The notes beneath the pieces were generated by a model. It saw only the letters and a program-made list of their open reading frames with translations. It made no database searches and was not told the DNA's origin. From NCBI GenBank assembly GCA_029257335.1, contig JARIBV010000068.1, forward strand, positions 55,998 through 119,997: a stretch of DNA of 64,000 bases, written 5' to 3'. The translations under genes and the position numbers were made by a program. Shown piece after piece: positions 20,413 through 45,370 of this stretch (its first letter is position 1; each line of letters begins with the position of its first letter). The DNA is from Faecousia sp. (lineage in GTDB: Bacteria > Bacillota > Clostridia > Oscillospirales > Oscillospiraceae).

Positions 20413-21951
20413 TTATTTCTCGTTCAGGACATGGTGACAAGCCACAAAATGGTTGGGGCGAAGTTCACGGAACTCAGGCACAACCTGTGTGCAGATCTCG
20501 GTGCAGTACTTGCAGCGAGTATGGAACTTGCAGCCCTTGGGAGGTCTCACGGGACTGGGGATATCGCCCTCCAGAACCTCGGGCTCCCGGTTGGCGTCCT
20601 CGTCTGTAGTGGGAATTGCATTCAGCAGAGCCTCGGTGTAGGGGTGCATGGGATGAGCAAAAATGTCATCAGAAGGAGCAAGCTCAACCATGTTGCCCAG
20701 ATACATAACACCGATTCTATCGGAAATGTACTTAACAACGGACAGGTCATGGGTGATGAACATGTAAGTCAGATGCTGCTTTTCTTTCAGTTCCTTCAGC
20801 AGGTTGATAACCTGTGCCTGAATAGAAACGTCCAGAGCAGAAACGGCTTCGTCACAAACCACGAACTTGGGGCGCAGTGCCAAAGAACGGGCGATACCGA
20901 TTCTCTGACGCTGACCACCGGAGAACTGGTGAGGGAAACGGTGGACAAAGTAGCCAGCCAGGCCACATTCCTCCATAACCTTCACAACCTCTTCCTGCAT
21001 ACGCTCATCATTTTTACGGAAGTACTTATGCGCAATCATGCCCTCACCGATAATCTGACCAACCGTCATTCTGGGGTTCAGGGAGGAATAGGGATCCTGG
21101 AAGATCAGCTGCAAATCGCTGCGCAAATGGCGCATCTCATCATAGGTCAGACGAGCCAGATCAATACCATTGGAGCGGTAAGCATCATACTTTGCAAAAT
21201 CAGTGTCCTTCTCATGCTGCTTCCGCAGGGCATCGATACGGACATTGATATCTGCAAGACGCTTGCGAATCTGAGCAATTTCATCGTCGCAGGCATTCAG
21301 CTTAGCTACAGCTTTATCGGCCTTAGCCTTGGCAGAGCCCTCAGCCTTACCAGCCTCTCTCTGCTTCTTCAGCTGGTATGCAGTATCCTTCACATCAAGC
21401 TCCAAATCCTGGCGCTTGTATGTAGCTTTGGACAGTTCCTGGAACACCTTGTACTGCTCCAGATAAATATTTGCAACAGGCTCCATATCAGGAGCGGCCA
21501 CCAGACCACCGATCAAAGTAGCCAGATCCAGCATTGCATCATTGGCTTCCTTCTTGAGGTGAGTCAGCTCTGCATGCTTTGCATACTGCTCTGTTTCAGG
21601 CAGAGCATCGTACTCAGCCTGAAAAGCTTCGTACTTTTTCTGATCCTCCAGCATCTTTTCCTTCCGCTTGCTCATATTACGGAAGGTATCGTGCACATAC
21701 TTAGGTGCAATCTCAGCCAGTTCACGGCCAAAGTACATGGTACGACCATCGGTCTGCTTGTACAGCTGCAACAGAGACCGGCCCAAGGTGGACTTACCAC
21801 AGCCGGACTCACCGACCAAACCGAAGGTTTCACCTTCATAGATATCGATGGAGATACCATCGTTGGCCTTAACTGCCAGGCCCTTTCCCACAGGGAAGTA
21901 CTGCTTCAGATTGGAGATTTGCAGCAGTATCTTGCGTTCCTTATTTTCCAT
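20413..21951 (-). CDS. oppF: oligopeptide ABC transporter ATP-binding protein with long coiled-coil insertion
   Basis: GLVGESGCGKSTLGRSLL Walker A, HQFSGGQRQRIGIARSLAL signature, FVVCDEAVSALDVSIQ Walker B; 512 aa versus about 320 aa expected. Confidence 0.9.
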   Translation of the reverse strand: MENKERKILLQISNLKQYFPVGKGLAVKANDGISIDIYEGETFGLVGESGCGKSTLGRSLLQLYKQTDGRTMYFGRELAEIAPKYVHDTFRNMSKRKEKMLEDQKKYEAFQAEYDALPETEQYAKHAELTHLKKEANDAMLDLATLIGGLVAAPDMEPVANIYLEQYKVFQELSKATYKRQDLELDVKDTAYQLKKQREAGKAEGSAKAKADKAVAKLNACDDEIAQIRKRLADINVRIDALRKQHEKDTDFAKYDAYRSNGIDLARLTYDEMRHLRSDLQLIFQDPYSSLNPRMTVGQIIGEGMIAHKYFRKNDERMQEEVVKVMEECGLAGYFVHRFPHQFSGGQRQRIGIARSLALRPKFVVCDEAVSALDVSIQAQVINLLKELKEKQHLTYMFITHDLSVVKYISDRIGVMYLGNMVELAPSDDIFAHPMHPYTEALLNAIPTTDEDANREPEVLEGDIPSPVRPPKGCKFHTRCKYCTEICTQVVPEFRELRPNHFVACHHVLNEK

Positions 21952-22944: not shown

Positions 22945-24894
22945 TTACTTATCGCGGTCAGACTTGGGGTCCATGACGTCACGCAGAGCGTCGCCGACCA
23001 GATTGATACAAATACAGGTGATTGCCAGGAACAAAGAGGTGAATACCCACTGCCACCAGAAGTTCTTAATAATGGTAGCATTGTTTGCACCATTGAGCAT
23101 GTTGCCCCAAGTGGGTCTGGGATAGGTAACACCGAAGCCCAGATAGCTCAAGGAGGACTCAGTCAGCATACAAGTTGCAAAGTTCAGAGTCAAGTTAACA
23201 AAGATGACGGAGACGATGTTGGGCAGGATGTGCTTGAATGCGATTGCGCCTTCACGAACACCCATTGCCTTAGCAGCGGTAACATACTCGTTTTCTCTTG
23301 CAGCCAGAACCTGACCACGAACCAGACGGGCAAGGCCAGTCCAGCTCAGAAGACCCAGGATTACCATCAGCACAAATATCTTCGAGTTTTCAGAAATATC
23401 CATCTGCGCCATGACAGCCGACAGAATCAAAGCAAATGGCAGGAACGGAATGGCTGCGAAGACCTCAGCAACACGCATCAGGAACATATCTGCCTTGCCG
23501 CCGAAGTAACCGGAGATACAGCCGATAACAATACCAATCACGGAAGAGATGATAACGGCAACTGCACCGATGGTCATGGTCATCTTACCACCCTGAATGA
23601 TACGCTGGAAGATGTCAGCACCATAGCTGTCTGTACCGAAGATGTAGCCCTTGAGGCCCCACTTTGCCATCAGCTTGTTATTTGCGTCTACTGCATAGCT
23701 CTGGAAAGAACCGCCGTAGATCCGGTCAGCGCCCTTGGCACTTGCTTCCACATCGCACTGGCCCAGAACATTGCCGCCCCAGGAGTAAACATTTCCCTTG
23801 TCGGTCAGAGCAGTGTAGTGATAAGCACCTGCCTTCACATCCACAATCTGTTCGCCATTCATCTCGGGCATGTTTACGGAACCTGCGGGGAAGTCACCGG
23901 AGAAGCACATGGTGCCATCATCCAGCAGCATACCAACATTGGAGCTGGTAGCATAGATGCTGGTGATCTTCCGGCCATCCAGGAACTTGCCGGCAGGGCT
24001 GGCAGATCCGGTCATATTTGCGCGGTACTGATCCAGCAGGCCACGCTTGCCGGTAAACAGGCCATTGCCCTTCTCAGTCAGGCCGACAACATAGCTCAGA
24101 GTGAAATCAATGTCTACAAGATCCTTCTTGTCAACGAAATTTTCAATGTTGGAATATGTGTTCTTGTTGCCCCAGAGGTACAAAGTACCATCATTCATCA
24201 AAATTGCAGAGCACTGGTAACCACAGGTAACCTTCTTGATGTTCTCCACATCGATGGTGCCATTAAGCAGCTGATCGGGCATGGGGAGAATATTGGGGTA
24301 GAGCTCCGGATCAAAGTAACCGTACTGACCCAGCTTATTTACGCCCCAGGCGTATACCTTACCATTCTCGTCAATGGCAATGGCGTGGTCCATACCGGCA
24401 GCGACCTGAACGATCTTAGCGTCCTGGATTTCCTGAGGGATATCCTTCATATCAATTCCAGTTGTGCCCATCTTGGTAGAACCCCAGACATACACCTTAC
24501 CGGCATTGGAAAGACCAACGCTGAAACTGCCGTAGCTGTCGATCATTTTGATGTCGTTTTTCAGTTCCTTGGGAACGCTCATCATACCCATTGTAGGAGG
24601 AACATTCTTCTGGGTGACCTCTGTGTAGGAGTCACTGTAGTTCTTCATAAACAGAGGTCCAATGAACACGGTCAGCATCATCACAATGACGACGATCAAT
24701 GCAAAGACAGCCAGTTTGCGCTCCATAAAGCCCCGGATGATCTGTTTAGTAGGACTGACAATCTCCTCTACATCCTTAGTGGGGTCTTTCTTATTCTGCT
24801 CCATCTGGTCTACCAACTCAGCAGAGCCGCCTCTGAACAGGCGACGGCCCCAACCGGCGATTGTGCCGAAGAAGCCTTTTTTCTGTTTTTTCAT
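22945..24894 (-). CDS. oppC: oligopeptide ABC transporter permease with embedded RCC1-like repeats
   Basis: 649 aa; TM1 at residues 62-82, RCC1-like repeats at about 105-415, then YIFGTDSYGADIFQRII and the C-terminal BPD_transp_1 domain (EYVTAAKAMGVREGAIAFKHILPN EAA motif). Confidence 0.92.
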   Translation of the reverse strand: MKKQKKGFFGTIAGWGRRLFRGGSAELVDQMEQNKKDPTKDVEEIVSPTKQIIRGFMERKLAVFALIVVIVMMLTVFIGPLFMKNYSDSYTEVTQKNVPPTMGMMSVPKELKNDIKMIDSYGSFSVGLSNAGKVYVWGSTKMGTTGIDMKDIPQEIQDAKIVQVAAGMDHAIAIDENGKVYAWGVNKLGQYGYFDPELYPNILPMPDQLLNGTIDVENIKKVTCGYQCSAILMNDGTLYLWGNKNTYSNIENFVDKKDLVDIDFTLSYVVGLTEKGNGLFTGKRGLLDQYRANMTGSASPAGKFLDGRKITSIYATSSNVGMLLDDGTMCFSGDFPAGSVNMPEMNGEQIVDVKAGAYHYTALTDKGNVYSWGGNVLGQCDVEASAKGADRIYGGSFQSYAVDANNKLMAKWGLKGYIFGTDSYGADIFQRIIQGGKMTMTIGAVAVIISSVIGIVIGCISGYFGGKADMFLMRVAEVFAAIPFLPFALILSAVMAQMDISENSKIFVLMVILGLLSWTGLARLVRGQVLAARENEYVTAAKAMGVREGAIAFKHILPNIVSVIFVNLTLNFATCMLTESSLSYLGFGVTYPRPTWGNMLNGANNATIIKNFWWQWVFTSLFLAITCICINLVGDALRDVMDPKSDRDK

Positions 24895-24906
24895 TCCTGC
24901 GCCTCC

Positions 24907-25959
24907 TTACTTTCCAACTCTGACTCTGGGGTCAACAAGGCCGTAGATGATATCAATGATCAGGTTGCCCAAGAGAGACATTCCAACGTAGAACAGCTGC
25001 AGGAACAGAACTACATCAAAGTCAGTCTTACGCAGGGAGTCGATCATAATCTTACCCATACCATTGAGGCCAAACATGTTTTCAAACACCAGAGAACCGG
25101 CGAAGATGCCCAGGAACCAACCAACAACCAGAGTTACGACGGGAATCAGAGCATTGCGCCATGCATGAGAGTAGATAACTGCCTTTTCCTTGACGCCCTT
25201 TGCGCGAGCGGTCCGGATGCAGTCCATACTCAGTGCATCAATCATAGAGGCACGGACATAACGGGTCATGCCACCCATGGAGCAGAATGTCATAGTGATA
25301 AGGGGCAGGGCCAGATACTTCAAAGTATCCTTCCAATATGCCCAACCCTGAAAGTTACTGCCGGGGGTTTTCATACCGCTGGGCGGGAACCAACCAAGCA
25401 GTGAACAGAATATCCAAATGAAAAGAATTGCTGTGATAAAGGTAGGCAAGCTATAGCCTATAATTGTGAAGATCTGAACACCTCGGTCAAACTTGCTGTT
25501 CTTCTTCACCGCACACATAATACCCAGAGGAATCGTAATACCCAGGGCCAGAATTGTAGAAAGAATATTGATGATGATTGTATTTCTCATAGGCTCTTTA
25601 ATGACATTGATTACATCATCTTTGAGCTCATAGGAATAACCAAAGTTGCCTTCCAGCAGACCATTAAAGCTGCCGTTGTACAGGGGGTATACGCCGATCC
25701 AACGGCCATAACGAATCAGCATGTTGTCGGTATCGGTACCGTAGCGACGCTGATATTCAACATAGCGTTTTTGGAACCACTCTTGACGTTGCTCTTGAGT
25801 GAGGCCCTTCAGGGCTTGCTTCTGACTGTTTTCATCTGCTTTTGCATCTGTATAAGCACGGTTATTCGGGACAAGGTTATAGATCAAGAACATAAGAAGC
25901 GACAATATGACCAGAACAACAAGCATATAGCAGATTCTCTTAAGTACATATTTTCCCAT
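24907..25959 (-). CDS. oppB: oligopeptide ABC transporter permease
   Basis: MGKYVLKRICYMLVVLVILSLLMFLIYNLVP...DCIRTARAKGVKEKAVIYSHAWRNALIPVVTLV; start at 25959. Confidence 0.93.
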   Translation of the reverse strand: MGKYVLKRICYMLVVLVILSLLMFLIYNLVPNNRAYTDAKADENSQKQALKGLTQEQRQEWFQKRYVEYQRRYGTDTDNMLIRYGRWIGVYPLYNGSFNGLLEGNFGYSYELKDDVINVIKEPMRNTIIINILSTILALGITIPLGIMCAVKKNSKFDRGVQIFTIIGYSLPTFITAILFIWIFCSLLGWFPPSGMKTPGSNFQGWAYWKDTLKYLALPLITMTFCSMGGMTRYVRASMIDALSMDCIRTARAKGVKEKAVIYSHAWRNALIPVVTLVVGWFLGIFAGSLVFENMFGLNGMGKIMIDSLRKTDFDVVLFLQLFYVGMSLLGNLIIDIIYGLVDPRVRVGK

Positions 25960-26297
25960 ATTATTCTCCCATCTGTCGCCCGCGCGACAGTGTATTTGGC
26001 ATGGCATGAGGCTTTGGATCACCCCCTGCATGCCATGCGGGGGTAATTTGCAAATTTTGGTCCTACCTGTCCGGCCAAAAAAGACCGCACACTGGAGAAA
26101 ACGAACAGTGTACGGCATCTTGCGCCGTGTTGTGAATCAAACCATCCACCAGAGGTAGGTGGTGTTACTCCCCGCTGTCCCACAGATGCAATGCTTTCGC
26201 AGTATGGCCTGCAACCACAGGGTGGGTTTCCCCACCCTGTGACCGCAATGTCACACCTTACACATGGGTGTTAAGCTAGGGGTTTCAAAGTGATGGA

Positions 26298-28583
26298 TTA
26301 CTTCATCCAGTAGATATCGGCCATATCCTTAATGAAGTACTGGCTGTAGTTGCTGTACATGCTGGGATCAATGGTCAGGTTGAAGGAGTAGTCATAGACA
26401 GCGGAGTTGTAGCCGGTGCCCAAGTTGAAGCAGGTGTACATGGGAGTACCGCTGTAGTAGCCGTAGATCTGAGCCTGCTGCATTTCGTCCAGCATGGGGT
26501 TGAAGTCACCAATGGTCTTGTAGACAGCGAAGCCTGCAGCCTTCATGTTCTCGGACTGCTCAAAACCGGTAACCAGCAGATCGGAGAAGTCGTTGTTGGT
26601 GGTGCCGTACCAGTTCAGAACCAGAGGCATGTAGTAGTCGCCATTGACCTGGACGGTCTTGTAAGCGCCGTCAACAGACTTGTAAGCCTTGTCGAACTCG
26701 GTAGCCACATCGCCGGGGATCTTCTTGTAACGAACGCCCTCGGTGTACTCGCCGCCTTCAGCATTGTAGATCCAGCCGTCTTCCTCCAGAACTGCGATAG
26801 CAGAGTCCACGGAGGTATCATAAGCATTCAGAGACATGCCCTGGGAAGTAGCAGCTCTGTACATCCAGGAACCGGTGTAGTAGGGGCCGTCAACAACGCC
26901 GCCGTAGCCGCCGGTGAAGTCCTTAGCAAAGGTGGAGCGGTCCATGCAGTAAGCAATGGCCTGACGGACAGCAGTGTACTGAACGGGGCCATAGTCAGCA
27001 CGGAATGCCAGCTTACCATAGCCGGCACGGCTGTAGTGGGTGTAAACATAAGCGCCGTTGGAGCCGTCAGCCAGAGCGATGGCTTCGTTGGTGGGAGCGC
27101 CGCCGGTGATGCCGGGCAGGACATCAACGCCGCCGGCCTTGAAGTCTTCCAGCTGAGTCTGGGTAACGATCTTCTTGTAAACAACCTTCTGGATGCTGGG
27201 CTTCTTGCCTTCAAAGTTGCCCTTGAAGTTGGGGTTCAGTTCCAGAGTTGCTTCCTTGCTGGAAGCGTCGTACTTAGAGAGCACATAGGGACCGGAGTAG
27301 GGGTAGGTGGTATCGGTATTCTGAGAAGACTGCAGGATGTGAGCAGCATGGGTGTAGTTCTCGCCTTCCTTGGCGTAGAAATCACCGGTGATGTAGCAGC
27401 CCTTGCCGTCATCTGCGATGTCGAATTCGCCCATCCACAGATCCTTGAAGGTGGGATCAAAGGAAGCGTAATTGAGAGCGTAGAAGTAAGGCAGATACTG
27501 AGGATCGATGGTTACGGAGAACTGGTAGTCGCCCAGCAGGCGAAGACCGGTCATTTCCTTGGTAACAACGGTGCCGTCGTCCAGGGTAGCGCCTTCGTTG
27601 GTGCCATCATAAGCATTGTAGCCCTTGAAGCCAACGAAGTTCATGGTGCTCATATGATCCTTACCGGCAGCCTGAGTAGCTACAGGAGTGGAGAATGCCA
27701 TGGCATAGTACAGGTAGTTCTTAGCGGTGATGGGAGAACCATCAGAGAACTTCAGGTCTTCCTGAAGAGTAATGGTGTAGGTCAGAGAACCGTCCTCGTT
27801 GTTGACGCTTTCCAGGTTCTTTACGACCTGCTCGTTCACAACAAAAGCACCGTCCTTGTTGGCCACAACGGTTTCCAGACCGTTGCACATATGGGAAACA
27901 GCAAGGTCGGATGCAGCGGGGCTGGTGCCGCCGAAGGCAGCAAAACGGAACTTGCCGGACAGCTCGGTAGCATCGCCGATGATGATGGAGTTGTCAGCCT
28001 TCTCGGAGGTCCAGTCAATCAGAGCCTTGGTAACAGGCCAGTAGGGGTTGGTCGCATGCTCCTCAATACCCTTGATCTGTGCGTTGTACAGATCATAGAA
28101 CTCGTTGGAGTACAGGGGAATCTCGGGCATCATCATGTTCCAGCGGGTGATGTAGTACTTCCACCACTCGGCATAGACCTCATCTTCGGTCTTGAAGTCA
28201 GTGCCTTCGGTAGAGGTGTTGTAAACCATGGCCATGGACAGGAAGTCCAGACCCAGTTCAACAGACTCGCCGTCAACATCCAGGTAGGCCAGGCCAGTGG
28301 TGGGATCCTCGGTGACATCAGCGATGGAGACGTCCTTACCCATGTGCTCGTACAGGGAGACATAATCCATGCCGTACTCCTTGCCGTTCAGCATCTGAAT
28401 AGAGGAAGGCTCGCCGTCAGCGTTGACAGGCTGGGTCTCATTTCCAGTAGCGTCGGGGTTAGCGGTCTCACCAGAGACAGTGGAGTCGGTGCCCTTTGTC
28501 TCGTTGGTGTCGTTTTTGCTGCAGGCGGTCATAACGGAAGTCACCATAACGGCAGCCAGCAGCAATGCGAACAGCTTTTTCAT
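26298..28583 (-). CDS. oppA: oligopeptide ABC transporter substrate-binding lipoprotein (SBP family 5, atypical N-terminus)
   Basis: 761 aa; MKKLFALLLAAVMVTSVMTACSK lipobox; TYTITLQEDLKFSDGSPITAKNYLYYAMAF typical of SBP_bac_5. Confidence 0.92.
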   Translation of the reverse strand: MKKLFALLLAAVMVTSVMTACSKNDTNETKGTDSTVSGETANPDATGNETQPVNADGEPSSIQMLNGKEYGMDYVSLYEHMGKDVSIADVTEDPTTGLAYLDVDGESVELGLDFLSMAMVYNTSTEGTDFKTEDEVYAEWWKYYITRWNMMMPEIPLYSNEFYDLYNAQIKGIEEHATNPYWPVTKALIDWTSEKADNSIIIGDATELSGKFRFAAFGGTSPAASDLAVSHMCNGLETVVANKDGAFVVNEQVVKNLESVNNEDGSLTYTITLQEDLKFSDGSPITAKNYLYYAMAFSTPVATQAAGKDHMSTMNFVGFKGYNAYDGTNEGATLDDGTVVTKEMTGLRLLGDYQFSVTIDPQYLPYFYALNYASFDPTFKDLWMGEFDIADDGKGCYITGDFYAKEGENYTHAAHILQSSQNTDTTYPYSGPYVLSKYDASSKEATLELNPNFKGNFEGKKPSIQKVVYKKIVTQTQLEDFKAGGVDVLPGITGGAPTNEAIALADGSNGAYVYTHYSRAGYGKLAFRADYGPVQYTAVRQAIAYCMDRSTFAKDFTGGYGGVVDGPYYTGSWMYRAATSQGMSLNAYDTSVDSAIAVLEEDGWIYNAEGGEYTEGVRYKKIPGDVATEFDKAYKSVDGAYKTVQVNGDYYMPLVLNWYGTTNNDFSDLLVTGFEQSENMKAAGFAVYKTIGDFNPMLDEMQQAQIYGYYSGTPMYTCFNLGTGYNSAVYDYSFNLTIDPSMYSNYSQYFIKDMADIYWMK

Positions 28584-29198: not shown

Positions 29199-32004
29199 TC
29201 AGCTTTTTGTGGTATACCGAAGCAGGGTCACTATTTCTCCTGCCTTTTGAAGGAGCCGGACCGTTTCATCTTTTACACAGAGCTCTTTTAAAGGTTGTTC
29301 TGCCAAATCCGCAATAAATGCCTTTTGAAGTCCGTCAAAGCGAACCCAGACCATCCCCTCTTTCAGGCAAGGCTCCAAAAGGCGCAGCACCGTTGCTTTT
29401 CCATCCTGAGAGCGTTTGACGCTTCCCACCTGGGCTACACCGTGGATTTCAAAAAAGCGGTATGTCAAAGGCAGGGTAACCGGATGGGAAATGTTGGATG
29501 CATAAGAAAGATCCCAGTGGGTAAAGGCGGTGCCCAGGGCTTTCAGCGTCATACCATCCGATTTTGCGGCACACATACCCAAACGAAACCGGCACTGTCC
29601 CAGCTCCGGATAAGGGTCAGGGCCGGAGGAGGAACGCAGAAGAGACACCTGCAGGTTGTCTGCATACCCACGATAGCCATATTTGTTATCCGTGAGCAGG
29701 GCCATTCCCATCTTCTCTCCTGCTGCAAACAGAAAGTTTCTGGCGCAGTGGTCATGCAGAGGTTCCGGCATCCGCCGATCCAGGCCAATAAGCCCGTCAC
29801 CAAAAAATTGCTCCGGTGTCCAGGCCAGATGCATCTGAACGCACAGGCTCGGGCTTCCGGTTTCGTCCGCCAGTTCCATCCAGTGCACTTTGCCCGTCAG
29901 CTCCAGAATCGCAGATCCCTTTTCTAATGTGGCGGTGACCTCCAGCCTGCTGTCATGCATCCGGATTTCATAGGTCAGACTTTGACGGAGCTCCCCTTTT
30001 TCGGGTCCTTTGATTCGGCAGACACAGCCGGTTTTATGAAGATCCACCGGCTCCATCTGCACTCCCTCTACCCAGGCATTTCCTGTTGTCTCCCCTTTTC
30101 GCTCTCGGTACATCCGGACCCTGCTCCTCGAGGGCCCAGCATCTGTCTGCCTGTTTCCTTATATATAGGAGGCAATGGACAAATCTTCCTCCCGGAATGT
30201 GATTTTCACCACATCATTTTCTAAAATCAAAGGTTGGTATACGGTCACCCTGGGATTCGGTGGCAACGCCGAGAAGCAGAAGCTCTGCTTTTCCTCCTCG
30301 GTCACGACCACCGTGGTATACCCCAAAGCAGGGACCTCCATCTGAACAAGAAGGTCCGTTCTTCTGTGACTCCAGTCCGAAGCCCCATGGGCCAACACCT
30401 GAGAGGGCAGCAGGTCCCCTTGTGCATCACGGACCCACAGCTGTTCCGGATTTCCGGGCCAGTCCCAGAGACTGGCTTCCATCACGCCTTTGCGATCAAA
30501 GCCCGTTGGATTGAAGAAATGCAAAATTCTGGTTTTTCCTCTGCTGCGCTCCATCCCGGCAGGCGGAACCCATTGGCAATGTCAATCAACAGCCCCATAC
30601 CTACTCCTTCAGAGCAAGATATCACAGGCGTATCCAGTGTCGCATAGGATGGGGTATCAATCCGGTCTGCAAAAGCCCGCAGCGATGCACCGGAGGCCGC
30701 CATCACCACGCCCATCGCCTCTTCAAACGCCCCCATGGCATGATCTCTGGAAATCTCCACATGGGAGCCAGGGAGAATGTCATGAAACTGATTGAACAAA
30801 ATCCGTTCCCAGGCAAACCGAAATTGGGGGTTGAAGCCCTCCATTGCTGTGGATTCTTCCGCAAGAGCGGCCAGTACTTCCGCCTCATACAGCCGATCCT
30901 CTGCCATTCGGTTGGCCTCCTTGATCCTGGACTGGGAGGTATAGCAGCCCGTAAAGGTGGGGCCAAGCTTCCCTGAAATCACAGGCAGCCGATGCATGAT
31001 GGGCAGGATGTTTGAAAAATACTCCCCATAGGTAGAAAACCTGATTTTGGGTGACAAGGGCCAGGTCTGCATCTGCAAAATACGCTCCAGATCCTGCCGG
31101 GTAGGTCCCCCGCCATGGTTGCCCACGCCATAAATCTTCATCATATCCTGAATGCCGTATTTTTTGCAAAACAGAGGCACCTGATTCAAATACATGGGCC
31201 GAATGGCATCGTTGTACCACAGAAGCTCGTTGAGTGCCAGAATTTCCGTACCGTTTGGAGCCTGCCAGCGGTAGAGGTTCTCCCCATCCAGGCCCCGGCA
31301 ATGGTAGAACCAGCGGATCCCGCCGGCTGTCAGGATTTCCGGCACCCAGGCACTGTGGCCAAAGGAATCGGGATGAAAGTCCCCTTCCACACTATCATAA
31401 ACTATGCCGAATTGCTGATAAAGATACTCCTTTGTATACAGAATGTGCCGTGCCATGGATTCCGCATTGGGCATGTTTTTGTCCAGCTCCACATAGGAAG
31501 ACCCCGCAAACTCCCATCGGTCTTCTCGCACCCGCTGCCTGATCCGGCGAAAGAGTGCCGGATCGTAAAATTCCGCAATTCGGTATACGGCACACTGAGA
31601 CTGGGAGAATGTAAACTCCGGGTATTCCTCCATAAGATCCAACATGGTCCGAAAGGTGCTCAGTACCGCCTGCACTGTTTCATGGGTGCCCCACATCCAA
31701 TCCATGTCAATATAGGCATGGGCAACGCAATGGTGAGTATACTGCTTTGCTTTCGGTGTCAGGGGAAGCAGCACCAACTCCGCCTTTTGCAGGGCAGTAT
31801 CCGTCAGGGCATGTTCCCGCTGAAAGCTGTCGTATAAACCGTCTACGGCCTGCTCCAAAAGCCGACGCTCCTGCCCTTCCGCCACAGCCTCTGCCACAGA
31901 AAAGGATGCAAAAAATCGCTCGCCCCAGGAACTCAGCTCAGGAATGTCGATCCAGTGGTTTTCTGCTCCGGCTTCATCTGCGCTATTTTATCATACATGG
32001 TCAT
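29199..32004 (-). pseudogene. GH38-family alpha-mannosidase, interrupted
   Basis: Three ORFs (30482..31897, 30159..30554, 29199..30113) read consecutively as one GH38 protein (AHAYIDMDWMWGTHET..., NHGGGPTRQDLE, RILFNQFHDILPGSHVE, HFFNPTGFDRKGV, GETTGNAWVEGVQMEP). One frame change near 30550, an in-frame TAA at 30159-30161, and the start-proximal ATGs (32004/31998) out of frame. Confidence 0.75.
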
Positions 32005-38919: not shown

Positions 38920-39168
38920 AATCATGGATCTCCCTGCTTGGTTCGTGACGTGCCCGTTTAGACCCACATTTTTTACTAGGGACGCAGGACTTCTTCTTCG
39001 GATTGCAGGCCTCCCGCCGGCGCTTTGACGATCGGTGGACGTTGGAAGCAGTTAAGATGTTAGAGCGGCGACCCACCTGCCGTTTTGTGCAGGTTATAAT
39101 CGGGTGCGCACGGCTAAAGTGGGGATTTTCAGGACCTGGTGCAAGAAATTGCCCAGGTCCTTTCTCTA
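38920..39168 (+). ncRNA. ssrS: candidate 6S RNA (ssrS) with terminator
   Basis: Non-coding gap with rod-like complementarity between CGTGCCCG near 38950 and CGGGTGCGCACG near 39100, CCACATTTTTTACTAGGGACGCAGG internal segment resembling Firmicutes 6S RNA, and an AGGACCTGG...CCAGGTCCT-TTCTCT terminator at 39131-39166. Confidence 0.5.
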
Positions 39169-45048: not shown

Positions 45049-45099
45049 AACCTCCATTCTCGAAAAGGTACAATAAGGCCGACTCATAACAAGATCGCA

Positions 45100-45370
45100 C
45101 ACCCACATTTGAAACAGCGCAACACCCGATACCGGCGCAGCCAGCTCGGAAACGGCAACCTCACGGCACACGAACAGATCCGCTTAATGCTGCTTGGTTC
45201 CCCACCTGACATGGTTCACGGGAGTCCGTTGCGTAAGACCGGTTCTTCAACGCCGCTTACGCCGGCCAGACGGTATTGCTGCTGATCCGGGTATGGGAAT
45301 TCATCCCTGCTGTAGCGGATTGCAGGTTACAGGGCACCGCTATCTCCCCGACTAGTGCGACCTTGTTATA
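45100..45370 (-). ncRNA. ffs: signal recognition particle RNA (long, Bacillus-type)
   Basis: Minus strand contains GGGGAGATAGCGGTGCCCTGTAACCTGCAATCCGCTACAGCAGGG (Alu domain) and GTGAACCATGTCAGGTGGGGAACCAAGCAGCATTAAGCGG (S-domain/helix 8); next to dnaX as in B. subtilis scr. Ends approximate. Confidence 0.93.

Follow-up and report, generated by a model that had tools for sequence, protein, structure and literature searches.

Few ABC systems have been studied as thoroughly as the peptide importers. Opp/Dpp importers (E. coli OppBCDF, 8z21, and DppABCDF, PMC12136057; M. tuberculosis OppABCD, 8j5q) comprise five gene products, and a minus-strand operon encoding the same five, ordered oppA-B-C-D-F, was found in the window, the 64,000-nucleotide stretch of Faecousia sp. 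DNA analyzed here. The window system also shares with them the OppC_N and BPD_transp_1 domains, the EAA loop, and a cluster C type binding protein. All four partners of OppC are present, namely a family 5 solute-binding protein (SBP), a second permease, and two ATPases with oligo_HPY. By its OppC_N and BPD_transp_1 domains and these four operon partners, the system can be assigned to the Opp/Dpp-type importers, suggesting peptide transport.

The core of the window OppC is 36% identical to E. coli OppC by structural alignment. Unlike E. coli OppC, however, it carries a predicted RCC1 propeller of ~330 residues in place of the short linker between TM1 and TM2. RCC1 repeats and the propeller fold are shared with BLIP-II, UVR8, RPGR, and HERC, none of which belongs to an ABC permease, whereas the propeller in the window sits between two TM helices. 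The binding protein also departs from Opp/Dpp importers, as OppA in the clade of the window is circularly permuted. Natural circular permutation is already known for a binding lipoprotein of another ABC importer, TpMglB-2 of Treponema pallidum, a cluster B sugar-binding protein whose N-terminal strands were moved to the C-terminus (PMC4990184). The window OppA is of the family-5 peptide type (SBP_bac_5) and its C-terminal segment was moved to the N-terminus, the opposite transfer; both features place it outside the TpMglB-2-like cluster Bc. The open-licence papers searched contained no account of OppC, or of any other permease of an ABC importer, with an RCC1 domain, and none of a permuted family-5 binding protein.

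Table 1. Features of the operon and of compared loci (window positions, unless a locus is named)
Feature	Position	Strand	Basis or remark
oppC, 649-aa permease, predicted RCC1 propeller in TM1-TM2 loop	22945..24894	-	ORF, Pfam, solved-structure alignment, AlphaFold2
OppC TM1, hydrophobic stretch, residues 52-86	24637..24741	-	OppC_N 47-100; hydropathy
Propeller blade 1, residues 113-152	24439..24558	-	Repeat count; AlphaFold2
Propeller blade 2, residues 159-206	24277..24420	-	Repeat count; AlphaFold2
Propeller blade 3, residues 217-252	24139..24246	-	Repeat count; AlphaFold2
Propeller blade 4, residues 257-304, divergent	23983..24126	-	Repeat count; AlphaFold2
Propeller blade 5, residues 308-344, divergent	23863..23973	-	Repeat count; AlphaFold2
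Propeller blade 6, residues 348-384	23743..23853	-	Repeat count; AlphaFold2
Propeller blade 7, residues 389-414, passes directly into permease core	23653..23730	-	Repeat count; AlphaFold2
OppC TM2-6 permease core with EAA loop, residues 415-649	22948..23652	-	BPD_transp_1; alignment to 8z21_B
oppA, 761-aa lipoprotein-type binding protein, circularly permuted	26298..28583	-	SBP_bac_5; permutation alignments
Relocated OppA segment, residues ~63-196, C-terminal in unpermuted relatives	27996..28397	-	Relative alignments, rotation
oppB, permease	24907..26118	-	Pfam; start more likely 25959 (MGKYVLKR), giving 350 aa, from where relatives align
oppD, ATPase, 329 aa	21941..22930	-	Pfam, NCBIfam
oppF, ATPase, 512 aa, ~185-residue insert at residues ~77-261	20413..21951	-	Pfam, NCBIfam, relatives
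Unpermuted OppA of L098	L098:9271-11505	-	Alignment to window OppA
Acetatifactor muris OppA	L038:2158-4338	-	Side-by-side permuted/unpermuted RCC1-Opp systems
Insert-bearing OppC of second subfamily, 530 aa	L114:7731-9320	+	Loop insert
Insert-bearing OppCs of second subfamily, 679-727 aa	L153-L158		Loop insert
GH38 alpha-mannosidase frames	29199-30113, 30159-30554, 30482-31897	-	Three ORFs

The insert between TM1 and TM2 of OppC

The oppC gene is a single intact reading frame with an ATG start and 0 internal stops; a long antisense ORF over this region (23230-25404, +) was taken as a mechanical ORF. Pfam assigned OppC_N with 35.2 bits (cut-off 23.9) and, at residues 454-644, BPD_transp_1 with 112.5 bits (cut-off 26.4). 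After the insert, the permease part restarts at FGTDSYGADIF, and residues 80-301 of the solved E. coli OppC align to residues 415-645 of the window protein (3e-47). The score for the NCBIfam Opp4C equivalog (NF045476) was 297.5 bits, below the curated cut-off of 350.

The preliminary description, made from the sequence alone, had located at least five RCC1-like repeats inside this one reading frame (positions 23647-24582, corresponding to residues 105-416), followed by a return to the OppC motif and the EAA loop. The alignment to E. coli OppC agrees with that return, and Pfam, AlphaFold2, and conservation all bear out the repeats, of which we counted seven (Table 1). Both Pfam models that it had proposed as a check exceeded their cut-offs, RCC1_2 (PF13540) with 101.6 bits against 22 and RCC1 (PF00415) with 61 bits against 21.7, while the full-length RLD model PF25390 remained below its own (128.9 versus 150). 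RCC1-type proteins of solved structure matched the insert at 3e-28.

A structure prediction lacking a propeller had been named as evidence against the proposal; the AlphaFold2 model, built with 38 sequences, instead divides residues 115-413 into seven strand units at regular spacing, with block pLDDT values of mostly 84-94; its TM part is less confident. Using Foldseek, this model matched BLIP-II, UVR8, and RPGR, and separately E. coli OppC; the closest solved fold to the propeller was BLIP-II (E 7e-14, TM-score 0.70 on target). The insert is thus predicted to fold as a complete seven-bladed RCC1-type propeller at residues ~113-414, and the architecture read from the sequence is TM1, propeller, and TM2-6 in one OppC. 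The RCC1 label refers to fold and repeats only, and a bacterial domain on the outer face would not be expected to catalyze nucleotide exchange on Ran.

The insert contains no hydrophobic segment: its highest 19-residue mean is 0.83, whereas TM1 reaches 3.0. K/R outnumber D/E by 12 to 8 in the first 58 residues of OppC. The cryo-EM structure of E. coli DppABCDF places the region between TM1 and TM2 on the periplasmic side in both permeases; in DppB this region forms a scoop motif that grips DppA (PMC12136057). Because of this homology, the propeller is placed outside the membrane, at the C-subunit equivalent of the scoop site. An outer-face location, as the preliminary description had assumed, is therefore supported by homology to DppC and by the hydropathy profile, and nothing spoke for the cytoplasmic placement of residues 105-415 that it had named as counterevidence.

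Distribution, origin, and a second insert at the same loop

The RCC1-OppC architecture was identified in 66 loci, all from Clostridia, with at least one contig counted twice (L045 = L111) and five loci lacking complete recovery of all genes. The 65 loci besides that of the window, including the isolates Butyrivibrio proteoclasticus P18 and Acetatifactor muris DSM 23669, rule out a chance match or sequencing artifact. Matches across the insert were found in 19 of 301 family genomes (12 of 106 genera) and in 14 rows of a phylum sample of 399 genomes, counting the window's own and one (G649) that matches only from model position 350 onward. A scan of genome contigs yielded 39 loci labeled Lachnospiraceae, Oscillospiraceae, or unassigned Clostridia, many of them from gut or rumen. 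Many gut and rumen Clostridia build this propeller into an importer loop. The window genome contains six other OppC-type permeases, all short, with RCC1_2 matches confined to this oppC, and no plasmid record covers 80% of the query.

In a tree constructed from the TM domain alone, the RCC1-OppCs formed one clade (SH-aLRT 99), and L064, labeled non-RCC1 in that tree, is a truncated member of it. This monophyly rules out repeated independent insertion for this sample, and the propeller insertion has a single origin there.

A second OppC subfamily from the same bacterial family (L114 and L153-L158) likewise carries a large insert in the TM1-TM2 loop, a repeat region of 200-380 residues. Unrelated to the propeller, this insert matches no Pfam model and lacks RCC1 repeats, and the OppC cores of the subfamily fall outside the RCC1 clade in the TM-domain tree. 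Among the 301 family genomes, 47 gave matches to it, the weakest being marginal; the 19 genomes that carry RCC1-OppC gave none (probability of zero overlap by chance 0.036, relatedness ignored). Judged from these proteins, the TM1-TM2 loop of OppC is a recurrent insertion site. The unrelated insert might indicate that the propeller is itself a tolerated insertion, a spacer without a specific role in a loop that accepts inserts, and the faster evolution of the propeller compared with the TM domain (median identity 35% versus 61%) points the same way. However, no propeller loss was seen inside the RCC1 clade in this sample, and across 61 operons the insert keeps a length of 301-406 residues with many repeat residues more than 90% conserved. 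We regard this explanation as the least probable of those considered.

A circularly permuted binding protein

In the OppA-family profile, residues 141-196 align to the C-terminus (504-556) of the solved OppA 9p48, and later residues of the window OppA family align to its N-terminal parts. The motif LPEIPLYSNEYYDLY lies at residues 117-209 in the frames of the close group and near the C-terminus (559-704) in other motif-bearing OppAs. The same rearrangement was evident against the OppA of L098, from the same genus, in which residues 84-631 correspond to window residues 200-744 and residues 669-738 to window residues 109-189 (6e-19). When the window OppA was rotated by script, its score increased against every unpermuted relative tested (L098: 1270 to 1442) and decreased against both permuted relatives tested. 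The relocated C-terminal segment rules out a new domain in the N-terminal ~200 residues. These alignments indicate that OppA is a natural circular permutant, with the usual C-terminal ~100 residues now N-terminal.

The permuted OppAs form one clade comprising 37 of 61 operon rows (SH-aLRT 99). Matches spanning the new junction were found in five of the 301 family genomes, all with RCC1-OppC, and permuted OppA was seen only together with RCC1-OppC. Acetatifactor muris (L038) has permuted and unpermuted OppA in neighboring RCC1-Opp operons. Because unpermuted relatives occur within one genus, and in A. muris within one genome, the permutant offers a natural experiment on what the position of the lipid anchor does for a binding protein.

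Covariation, neighboring genes, and the possible role of the propeller

To identify the partner that the propeller follows, we correlated the pairwise distances of operon parts over 61 systems, after selecting columns that gave every part a similar divergence (rate matching). After rate matching, the partial r between RCC1 and OppA was 0.78, compared with 0.70 for OppC TM-OppB and 0.72 for OppD-OppF, which served as positive controls because they are known physical partners, and -0.02 between RCC1 and its own TM domain. OppA was the top partner of RCC1 in 300 of 300 subsamples. On ranks, the RCC1-OppA value was 0.50 (range of rank values 0.36-0.57), and it fell to 0.60 (0.36 on ranks) when the OppB loop and OppC N-terminus were added; it was 0.46 within the permuted clade and 0.24 within unpermuted systems. 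The outer loop of OppB also correlates, pairs in such distance correlations are not independent, and some of the signal could reflect rate changes common to the extracellular parts. The covariation therefore provides moderate support, not proof, for an interaction between OppA and the propeller.

The reading we favor, somewhat above even odds, is that the propeller is a dock for lipid-tethered OppA at the channel mouth. It is suggested by covariation with OppA rather than with its own TM domain, by the insertion site, which by homology equals the scoop-motif loop, and by the closest solved fold, BLIP-II, being a protein-binding propeller. Lipid-anchored OppA would catch a peptide and, once loaded, dock on the propeller and scoop region. 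The propeller, occupying the C-subunit loop equivalent to the B-subunit loop that forms the OppA-gripping scoop motif, would hold or orient OppA for efficient handover in a cell without an outer membrane. OppA would then release the peptide into OppB-OppC, with OppD-OppF driving transport. Docking of OppA had been proposed in the preliminary description and gains indirect support here, weaker within the sub-clades.

The covariation would also fit if the propeller itself bound peptide, a role likewise named in the preliminary description, as a second receptor or selectivity filter above the channel, since OppA meets the same peptides. RCC1-type propellers bind varied ligands, and this one is located above the pore by homology. 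Nevertheless, no known peptide pocket was identified in it, and the positions with at least 80% conservation are mostly Gly, Trp, Tyr, and Ala of the repeat motif. We consider this explanation unlikely.

The docking reading may extend to a dedicated extracellular dock that allowed OppA to permute, shifting its lipid anchor, as one case of a habit of placing domains in the OppC loop. We propose this extension tentatively, as it is more doubtful than docking itself. If true, binding protein and ABC importer would be coupled here in a manner of their own, and the propeller would exemplify a broader tendency of gut Clostridia to add domains at this site. With a conserved extracellular propeller that covaries with OppA, the way in which a binding protein locates and contacts its channel when the bacterium lacks a periplasm becomes testable.

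Gene order was A-B-C-D-F in 61 of 61 loci with five complete genes. The OppF insert (21169-21723, -), which is charged, probably coiled-coil, and lies between the Walker A and Q-loop regions, occurs in most RCC1 systems. It is absent from L103-L106, L109, and L110, whose plain OppFs of 332-336 aa rule it out as a fixed propeller partner. The fixed pairing with one OppA/OppF type suggested earlier therefore did not hold, as OppA is permuted in some operons only.

M3-type oligopeptidases are usually cytoplasmic. A gene for an M3-type oligoendopeptidase adjoins oppA in 12 RCC1 loci (e.g., L048:4488-6233, +), and one is also found upstream in the non-RCC1 locus L114. From the importer family and this neighboring gene, the substrate is probably oligopeptides. 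The M3 gene, despite the usual location of its product, and the outer-face position predicted by homology could be taken to mean that the importer is tethered through its propeller to a different partner at the surface, such as a polymer of the cell wall, a surface protease, or a ligand of the host. However, no non-operon gene is constant beside the RCC1 operons compared; once operon genes and overlapping frames in antisense are set aside, the most frequent neighbor family occurs at 13 of 61 loci. Covariation, in turn, singles out OppA. Anchoring is accordingly improbable, and the wall or host ligands named in the preliminary description found no support here.

At Rfam gathering thresholds, no riboswitch or T-box was detected before oppA in the window, L029, L036, or L041. 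Elsewhere in the window, a GH38 alpha-mannosidase (29199-31897, -) is split over three frames, reflecting a frameshifted gene or an assembly error, and Rfam identified a 6S RNA (38928-39129, +) and a bacterial large SRP RNA (45095-45360, -).
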